64,000 nt of DNA, taken from contig NZ_CP107254.1 of assembly GCF_029229925.1 (NCBI RefSeq), positions 1,054,001 through 1,118,000 on the forward strand, in the 5' to 3' direction. Below are positions 7,456 through 9,479 of this stretch, in pieces. The position numbers were made by a program, and so were the translations under genes. Source of the DNA: Halorhabdus sp. BNX81 (GTDB taxonomy: Archaea > Halobacteriota > Halobacteria > Halobacteriales > Haloarculaceae). Below the pieces are notes generated by a model, which saw only the letters and a list, made by a program, of their open reading frames with translations, was not told the DNA's origin and ran no database searches. Every line of letters begins with the position of its first letter. Within the stretch, counting starts at the first letter, position 1.

Positions 7456-8091
7456 CTACTGAGGCCCACGTCGCCACTCGATCCGGAACAGTTCGACGTC
7501 GATCTCCCGGGACTCGGCCTCGTGAAACGAAAACTGACGGGGCAGCGAAAGGGTCGTGCCATACGCTGCCGTCACCTCGCCGCCGTTGTCAGCGGCGAAC
7601 GCCTCGACGAAGTCCACACTCCCCGCGTTGTGAATCGAGTACGAGACCGACGCGATGTCGGCTGCGGTCGCCAGGAACGCTCGGTCGGCGTGTTCGTTGT
7701 CCGACTGAGCGCCGAACGGCGGATTCATGATGGCGGTAACTGGCTCGGACGGACACACCGGCAGTTCGGTCGCGTCGGCCCGGAGCCAGGAGATCCGTGT
7801 CCGCGTTCCGACCCGGTTTTGGTTTGCCCGTGCAGTCGAGAGTGGGGCCGGATCGATGTCTACGCCGAGTACCGTTGCGGGGCCACGGAGCGCTGCACCG
7901 AGCGCGAGCATGCCCGTCCCGCACCCGAGATCGACGACAGTCCCGCCCGCGATGTCCCCGTTGAGATCCGCCAGATGGACGAGATGCGCCGCGACCGAGG
8001 GGGGCGTGCGGTACTGTTCGAGTGACGCTTCCGGATCGTCGAACCCGACGACAACCCCGAGTTGCTGGGCCAGCTCCCGTTTCGTGCTCAT
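7456..8091 (-). CDS. METTL5-type N6-adenine RNA methyltransferase
   Basis: The 211-residue protein has SAM motif I (DLGCGTG at 54-60), the adjacent VDID, and the N6-adenine catalytic motif NPPF at 123-126. LEQYRTP near 24-30 and a closing FSFHEAE region match human METTL5 closely in layout. METTL5 methylates an adenine in small-subunit rRNA (established in eukaryotes); the archaeal homologue is expected to act on 16S rRNA (inference). It converges with the rhomboid gene and is divergent from nothing obvious, since the next gene upstream is a small zinc protein on the same strand. Confidence 0.85.
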   Translation of the reverse strand: MSTKRELAQQLGVVVGFDDPEASLEQYRTPPSVAAHLVHLADLNGDIAGGTVVDLGCGTGMLALGAALRGPATVLGVDIDPAPLSTARANQNRVGTRTRISWLRADATELPVCPSEPVTAIMNPPFGAQSDNEHADRAFLATAADIASVSYSIHNAGSVDFVEAFAADNGGEVTAAYGTTLSLPRQFSFHEAESREIDVELFRIEWRRGPQ

Positions 8092-8214
8092 CGATGTAGT
8101 TCCTATCTCTGTCCCTAGTGGGCTCGCGGCGGGAAAAGCGTTCGATGCCCCAGAAGCGTTCAGCTACCGGTCCACTGCCGTGGTACTTTCACCAACACTA
8201 CGGCCGGGCGACAT

Positions 8215-8352
8215 TCAGGAACTCCAGAGATGTCGATCCTCCATCGACTCCGGGGCCCGATACCCCAGTACAGCGTGTCCCTGTGATTCGTGCCACGACG
8301 CCATGCGCTCGTCGATGTACTCCGAGCAGTCCTTGCAGTACCATGTTGCCAT
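8215..8352 (-). CDS. 45-residue CCHH zinc-finger-like microprotein
   Basis: This short gene was found by reading the spacer. Its product starts MATWYCKDC and continues to a WHESQGH segment, giving Cys6-x2-Cys9, then His21 and His26. That C2H2-like spacing could bind one zinc ion. A strong Shine-Dalgarno sequence (AGGAGGA) lies 5 bases before the ATG, which is rare and persuasive in this GC-rich genome. Haloarchaea encode many small zinc-finger proteins of under 70 residues, mostly with unknown roles. Nearby are the methyltransferase gene downstream and a divergent GAF sensor. Confidence 0.7.
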   Translation of the reverse strand: MATWYCKDCSEYIDERMASWHESQGHAVLGYRAPESMEDRHLWSS

Positions 8353-8357
8353 GTGTG

Positions 8358-8364
8358 TCCTCCT
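8358..8364 (-). promoter_or_regulatory. Shine-Dalgarno site of the CCHH microprotein
   Basis: On the minus strand this reads AGGAGGA, 5 bases before the ATG at 8352. It is fully complementary to the 16S rRNA 3' end and fixes the start codon. It implies a transcript with a leader. The A+T-rich stretch near 8405-8445 probably holds the divergent promoters. Confidence 0.65.
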
Positions 8365-8549
8365 AGTGGTGGCGCTTGTCCGCACTGTCGCCGGCCCACA
8401 CCCAACAATTAACCATGATATAGGATAATCTTTCCGGTATTTTAACCCCGGGTTGGCTATCGTGCGGGCTGGCCAGGGGCCAACTATAGAATGGCCGGTC
8501 TCGGTGGGCCACCCGAACGCTCAATGGGCCGGTGGCCGTCTGGGGGGCC

Positions 8550-9479
8550 ATGGAACGACGTCATCTCTACGGAGCTACGTTCGGCATCGTCGGCCTGCTC
8601 CTGGCCGGAATACAACTCGTCCACGCGGCCGAGCAGACCGACGTAGCGATCGCAATTGCTGTCGACGGGGTGCCCTTCGCGCTGCTGGGGCTGACGCTTT
8701 CGTTTACGGGGTACTGGCTCGGGTCGTCTGCGGAATACGATCCGGACCTCCCGCGAATCGCGGCGTGGGCCGTCGGCGGCACAGCCCTGTTCACGGCAGT
8801 CGCAGCGCTCATGCTGTTCAGTCAGCGCGTGGCCACCGGCACCGTACCGCGGGTGATGTACACGGCGATCGACGGTGTCACAGTCGGGGCGGTCGCCGGC
8901 ACACTCATCGGCCTGTATGACGCCCGCAGTCACCACCATCGGCGCCAACTCCAGCGTGAGCGCGATCGGACGGAAGCGTTTGCCCGCAAAGCCGCTGACC
9001 TCAACAATTACGGTCGGGCGCTCGCCCAGTCGTCCTCGGTCGAGGAAGTCGGTGCCTTCTGCATTCAGGCCGTCTCGTCGCTCCTCGGATACGACCAGAC
9101 TACCTACGTCGAGGTCGAACCCGACGGCGAACGGATCGTTAGCAGTACTGTCGCGGGCGTCCCCGACGGGGAAATCCGACGCCTTGCCAGACATGCCGCC
9201 GCTCAGGACGATGTCGTCCGTATCCAACGGCCGGGAGACGACACCACGGTAGCGACGCCGTCTGGCTCCCCGGACCTGTCGATGGCATCACTGTCGATCG
9301 TTCTCGACGGCGCTGCCCAGACGACTGGTGTGCTCGTCACTGTCGGTGACATCGAGGCCGAACTGTCATCGGAGGACGAACAACTACTGGAACTGCTGGC
9401 CTCCCACGCGGGCATGGTACTCGAGCAACTCTATCGACACAGAGGTCCACAAACGAGTGCATCCGAACCCACCGAGTAA
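8550..9479 (+). CDS. membrane-anchored GAF-domain sensor
   Basis: The product of about 309 residues begins with about four membrane helices (roughly residues 6-26, 33-55, 66-90 and 100-125), then a basic helical linker rich in Arg/Gln, then a GAF-like domain (about 145-290) ending in LLASHAGMVLEQL. There is no kinase, HTH or cyclase domain, so it has a sensory part without an output that I can recognise. It may signal through a partner. A GTG at 8532 would add six residues; ATG at 8550 is preferred. It converges with the RNase P gene. Confidence 0.65.
   Translation: MERRHLYGATFGIVGLLLAGIQLVHAAEQTDVAIAIAVDGVPFALLGLTLSFTGYWLGSSAEYDPDLPRIAAWAVGGTALFTAVAALMLFSQRVATGTVPRVMYTAIDGVTVGAVAGTLIGLYDARSHHHRRQLQRERDRTEAFARKAADLNNYGRALAQSSSVEEVGAFCIQAVSSLLGYDQTTYVEVEPDGERIVSSTVAGVPDGEIRRLARHAAAQDDVVRIQRPGDDTTVATPSGSPDLSMASLSIVLDGAAQTTGVLVTVGDIEAELSSEDEQLLELLASHAGMVLEQLYRHRGPQTSASEPTE

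Follow-up and report, generated by a model that had tools for sequence, protein, structure and literature searches.

A conserved CCHH zinc-finger-type microprotein of Halorhabdus, possibly a relocated member of a haloarchaeal family associated with [NiFe]-hydrogenase maturation

The minus strand of the window, the 64-kb stretch of Halorhabdus DNA analysed here, carries at positions 8215 to 8352 (stop included) a gene of 45 codons for a CCHH zinc-finger-type microprotein, as delimited by translation and by conservation in the genus. Its ATG is found at 8352-8350 and its stop at 8217-8215, and the product, MATWYCKDCSEYIDERMASWHESQGHAVLGYRAPESMEDRHLWSS (45 residues; hereafter the finger), contains C6, C9, H21 and H26. 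A Shine-Dalgarno (SD) sequence, AGGAGGA, stands at 8358 to 8364 on the same strand, five bases before the ATG, with CACAC (8353-8357) as the spacer; its core GGAGG is kept in 7/7 Halorhabdus genomes while the adjacent leader bases vary. Frame, residues and SD position are as an earlier note on this DNA had described them, and the interval given there, 8215-8366, for which it named no strand, comprises the gene plus the SD. At 8416 to 8438 (minus strand), 64-86 bases upstream of the ATG, we found the 23-bp promoter-like element ACCGGAAAGATTATCCTATATCA, which in 7/7 genomes of the genus shows 0-1 mismatch to the consensus ACCGGAAA[GT]ATTATCCTNTA[TC]C[AG] and lies at a similar distance from the ATG in the other six. 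We take it to be of BRE/TATA type, that is, a putative promoter of the finger gene. It occurs once per Halorhabdus genome, with one further copy carrying 3 mismatches in G073; a regulon shared through this element was rejected, because in these genomes it is unique to the finger gene. Downstream of the finger, on the same strand in 7/7 Halorhabdus, comes a METTL5-like methyltransferase gene (7456 to 8091, minus strand), whose product matches the solved structures of PH1948 (1.1e-32) and METTL5 (1.2e-27). The element CATCGAACGCTTTTCCC that precedes it (8131 to 8147, minus strand), with a core conserved in the genus, suggests that the methyltransferase gene has its own promoter; the finger gene would be transcribed separately from it. 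The divergent neighbour on the other side (8532 to 9479, plus strand) is a 4TM + GAF sensor-like gene (HisKA_4TM, 9e-10) in whose product the domain scan found no kinase domain match. In all seven Halorhabdus the finger sits between the methyltransferase gene and an upstream neighbour that is either 4TM-GAF (3/7) or Dph2 (4/7).

Is such a short frame a real gene? By similarity search it is present in 24/146 genomes of the family, including 7/7 Halorhabdus, where the copies are 87-100% identical and both the ATG and the stop are conserved. Across 21/21 Halorhabdus pairs dN/dS is 0-0.215, and we consider the gene real on the strength of this conservation. One antisense frame over the gene is likewise open in 7/7 Halorhabdus; the sense frame is preferred because the differences among the seven genomes, counted in that frame, fall at codon positions 3/1/2 in the numbers 208/80/54. 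Judged from its sequence conservation, then, the 45-codon frame is a genuine protein-coding gene. It is also the sole stretch with the pattern CxxC-x8-14-H-x3-5-H among the ORFs of the window, and in 150 windows simulated with a first-order Markov model a start-bearing frame with that pattern appeared 0.35 times per window and was accompanied by an SD-like motif in 2/150. The rarity of the SD, on which the earlier note had relied, is roughly right: among 54 ORFs chosen heuristically within the window, GGAGG, GAGGT or AGGAG precedes the start in eight and a six-base motif in two. According to PMC3986360, most H. volcanii transcripts have no leader, and where a leader exists an SD is usually missing; the title of that paper states that the SD mechanism is unused in the species. 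For this reason the SD ahead of the finger gene, though genuine, is weak evidence of coding.

The residues W4, Y5, C6, C9, I13, H21, H26, G30 and P34 are invariant in 22/22 similarity-found rows (alignment A1, which leaves out L002, the same protein as that of the window, and L024, the weakest row, in which the ligands are kept), and the finger region is gapless. The four putative ligands thus passed the conservation check proposed at the outset, and the core W-Y-C-x-[DE]-C-x3-I-x7-H-x4-H is kept in the same 22 rows, window protein included; in alignment A2, whose rows came from a pattern scan, it is kept by construction. At the C-terminus the Halorhabdus rows read YR(A/S)PxSMEDRH and have no RPxRLL, the motif of most hydrogenase-type rows. 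The AlphaFold model (24 rows; mean pLDDT 74.8, with block values of 83-90 for residues 1-30 and below 50 for residues 37-45) has strands at 3-6 and 11-13, a helix at 15-23 and a further strand at 28-31. A classical C2H2 finger is a strand-strand-helix unit with the spacing Cx2-4C-x12-Hx3-5H and both histidines at or in the helix; here the spacing is C-x2-C-x11-H-x4-H and H26 falls outside the modelled helix. B-box, UBR-box and ZZ domains, which are protein-interaction domains, were the best though weak matches when VIA-align compared the model with 231 chains of at least 30 residues (top Z 2.8), a length range that lone classical fingers (<30) fall outside. The best Foldseek row was TRIM28 B-box1 (E 0.49), to which a sequence profile search also led (E 0.6). 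With Z ≤2.8 and Foldseek E ≥0.49 these values are within noise, and we claim no fold relation to B-box, UBR-box or ZZ domains. Scans of the window finger against Pfam (best SdpI, E 0.1) and NCBIfam (best rubredoxin-like, 0.049) gave nothing above cut-off and the PADLOC scan gave no match, so that the family is covered by no Pfam, NCBIfam or PADLOC family searched; sub-threshold zf_UBZ matches in some relatives were treated as generic finger resemblance. Sequence and model together give good support to a single-domain CCHH protein with a predicted zinc site, which would bind zinc. According to PMC11241148, several predicted zinc fingers bind no zinc.

A search with the window protein alone already leads to members in other genera (E down to 7.5e-8), and outside Halorhabdus almost every relative is encoded in a [NiFe]-hydrogenase locus, with the maturation protease on one side and HypC on the other. 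We read 35 regions around finger genes, 7 from Halorhabdus, 3 Halosimplex-like and 25 from hydrogenase loci (L061-L071, L073 and L074-L086), in two sets, of 20 (7, 1 and 12, respectively) and of 15 (2 Halosimplex-like and 13 hydrogenase). The 25 hydrogenase loci carry the small subunit, the large subunit, usually cytochrome b, the maturation protease and then the finger, which in most of them is followed by HypC, HypD, HypE, HypA and HypB; the exceptions are L064, with no hyp gene after the finger, and L073, which reaches the contig end. The same order is found on plasmid pAArc1-02 of Natrarchaeobaculum sulfurireducens (RefSeq), where the finger gene shares 4 bases with the protease gene and 1 base with HypC, and its product is annotated as 'hypothetical protein'. 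This plasmid is one of two with a reported group 1a hydrogenase (PMC6176080), a paper whose main text contains the word 'zinc' 0 times and leaves a small zinc protein unmentioned. On the other plasmid, pAArc-Mg-01, the hypD that is an intact single gene in pAArc1-02 is split in the annotation between a short hypothetical protein and a hypD of reduced length (L176, 6670-7773), either a frameshift or an annotation difference. The plasmid search gave credible matches only to the two Natrarchaeobaculum plasmids (E 0.02, same locus type); the remaining 8/10 plasmid records were off-family (E 0.3 or weaker) and were set aside. The family pattern had 0 matches in viral_contigs. From the 25 stretches of a family scan across named genomes, a Marinimicrobia MAG (L097) and a Bacillota MAG (L115) were rejected as non-haloarchaeal members, since they matched no family or hydrogenase profile and their frames look unrelated. 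Among open-access papers, supplements aside, a literature search turned up none that describes a zinc microprotein encoded in the hydrogenase loci of haloarchaea.

Co-occurrence was examined in 391 genomes of the class, 71 of which match the finger at E 0.01 or better; only 32 of them, whose match was strong (E ≤6.4e-16), were counted. Dropped were 37 weak genomes with matches at 7e-4 or weaker, often partial ones in frames of about 900-1000 codons, and G091 (1e-9) and G093 (7e-8) carry Halosimplex-like stand-alone fingers. The large subunit PF00374, present in 41/391 genomes, accompanies the strong finger in 32/32 cases and occurs in 9/359 genomes without it (Fisher p = 4e-39, or 4e-32 excluding Halorhabdus, values uncorrected for shared ancestry); neither G091 nor G093 is among the 41. 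Every strong match outside Halorhabdus lies in a hydrogenase locus (25/25), 22 by read context, one (G002) via locus L095 and two (G005 and G006) by coordinates. The nine genomes with PF00374 and no strong match indicate that the finger is not required for all hydrogenases, and since the large-subunit profile made for this analysis gives their loci much lower scores, the finger goes with one hydrogenase clade. A counter-example is L187, the second locus of G001 with a large subunit: it falls in this finger-linked clade, yet the 18 kb examined there contain no finger; the finger of that genome is elsewhere.

In 6/25 hydrogenase loci (L061, L062, L063, L065, L066 and L082) the finger is fused in frame after the protease domain. 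The carriers are Halorientalis regularis, Halovenus carboxidivorans, a Natronomonas MAG, G011, G012 and G245. No stop separates the two domains, and therefore the protease must carry the finger, although a Met that precedes the finger core by two residues might act as an internal start and yield a free finger as well. The fused loci form one clade in the large-subunit tree (support 100/99), from which we conclude that the fusion probably arose once; a cytochrome b match is absent from 6/6 of them and present in 19/19 of the others.

In Halorhabdus the finger gene lies outside every hydrogenase or hyp locus read. HypC, HypD, HypE and HypA are clustered elsewhere in 7/7 genomes, with no finger match there, and all seven have PF00374 large-subunit matches. 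A group-1 large subunit is found only in G000 and G069; the other five have only distant PF00374 matches and keep the finger, which there either works for the remaining hydrogenases or has been put to a new use. Both group-1 loci of Halorhabdus (L089, 7260-10444; L092, 7153-10307) are isolated sets of small subunit, large subunit and protease (HydS, HydL and HyaD) with no cytochrome b, hyp gene or finger; by eye, the neighbours in L089 read like ABC transporter genes. Across 23 methyltransferase loci outside Halorhabdus the finger is found in 0/23 and Dph2 upstream in 9/23, which suggests that the Dph2-methyltransferase neighbourhood is the older arrangement and that the finger probably entered it later. 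Stand-alone relatives whose loci contain no hydrogenase are also known from Halosimplex (L107 and L111) and, similarly, from L072, L087 and L088. The CCHH relatives of Halosimplex (L107, 5480-5713; L111, 1685-1921) have an arginine-rich repeated tail (ETAIRR-like) and follow a small gene whose product resembles, by eye, a winged-helix/HTH protein. A finger tree places Halorhabdus beside the fused clade, on a branch of 4.2; with 51 columns it is too short and the large-subunit tree disagrees, and this placement was discarded.

We propose that the Halorhabdus finger is a relocated single-domain CCHH zinc protein from a haloarchaeal family associated with [NiFe]-hydrogenase maturation, in which it would act as an adaptor between proteins, a reading to which we give a probability of roughly one half or slightly less (about 0.48). 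Other haloarchaea encode the finger in the hydrogenase operon, with the protease (HyaD/HydD) on one side and the chaperone HypC on the other, and one hydrogenase clade has it built into the protease itself. It would probably serve as a zinc-stabilised docking module, delivering the C-terminal protease to the precursor of the large subunit or to its HypC complex, a role favoured by the protease fusion and by the weak B-box/UBR-box/ZZ resemblance. In Halorhabdus, a separate finger gene with its own promoter-like element would probably serve the hydrogenases of the cell in trans; that this copy retains a hydrogenase role has about even odds. The finger gene, its conservation, the location of its family and the fusion are direct observations. 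Rather more tentatively, we suggest for the family as a whole that it represents an undescribed haloarchaeal [NiFe] maturation factor, a zinc-stabilised protease docking module that may be separate, fused or, in Halorhabdus, distant and serving several hydrogenases in trans. If true, haloarchaeal hydrogenase assembly would have an extra component and a RefSeq hypothetical protein would acquire a role, while the operon copy, the protease fusion and the detached copy would offer natural controls for an orphan micro-protein hypothesis.

Three other explanations deserve weight, each of them improbable to a similar extent. The most serious is that the finger was exapted in Halorhabdus for some other, general protein-protein role and has lost its hydrogenase link. 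Its retention in 5/5 species without a group-1 large subunit, the diverged C-terminal tail and the long branch in the finger tree would be expected if this were so, yet all seven genomes possess other [NiFe] large-subunit matches together with HypC, D, E and A, and we regard exaptation as unlikely. Trm112, a small zinc protein, activates METTL5 in eukaryotes, and the finger might similarly have been recruited as a Trm112-like partner of the adjacent METTL5-like rRNA methyltransferase, which matches METTL5 at 1.2e-27 and is the constant downstream neighbour (7/7) while the upstream gene varies. Nevertheless, canonical Trm112 is already encoded elsewhere in 7/7 Halorhabdus (E 1e-11 to 1e-13), the methyltransferase gene has its own conserved upstream element, and its loci in other genera go without the finger (0/23) and have Dph2 in 9/23. 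This partnership is marginally less probable still. Least probable, by a small step, is a role in the control of nearby or anaerobic genes, with the finger as a small regulator or as a zinc protein that binds nucleic acid, in the manner of Brz or Ros. The strand-strand-helix finger with CxxC and HxxxxH modelled by AlphaFold would fit such a protein, as would the winged-helix/HTH-like gene upstream of the Halosimplex relatives, and Brz is a small haloarchaeal zinc-finger regulator (PMC2253796). However, a single finger in a chain of 45 residues, of which 8 are acidic and 4 basic (K, R), is not what this role would suggest, and the context of the family is one of maturation enzymes and a protease fusion. 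The best, albeit weak, fold matches are moreover to protein-binding domains.

How does the hydrogenase-linked family compare with known systems? A B-box has two zinc sites in a cross-brace. The finger, with its weak resemblance in fold and sequence to B-box, ZZ and UBR-box domains (PDB 6o5k, 5yp7 and 5vmd), has one set of candidate zinc ligands (four conserved) and lacks the second site. Its likeness to Trm112 (PF03966) consists in being a small zinc protein with a METTL5-like neighbour, whereas the Pfam scan of the window finger gave no match to PF03966 and a true Trm112 is encoded elsewhere in 7/7 Halorhabdus. With the C(P)XCG micro-proteins of H. volcanii, which according to PMC11241148 and PMC6562870 carry two C(P)XCG motifs, it shares a single domain, a length below 70 residues and a predicted zinc site; it differs in having one CxxC plus HxxxxH, no CPxCG and no G after the CxxC. 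The likeness to zinc proteins of swarming and biofilm hinted at in the earlier note is not borne out, since those H. volcanii proteins, in the same two papers, are of the C(P)XCG type while the relatives of the finger belong to [NiFe]-hydrogenase loci. Rather than as a generic C2H2 microprotein, the finger is better read as belonging to a CCHH family that is linked to hydrogenases and from whose usual loci it has become detached. The closest known counterparts are the hydABC-hydD-hyp modules of [NiFe] group 1a described in PMC6176080: relatives of the finger lie inside them, including those of plasmids pAArc1-02 and pAArc-Mg-01, whereas the Halorhabdus gene lies outside, between the METTL5-like and the Dph2 or 4TM-GAF genes.
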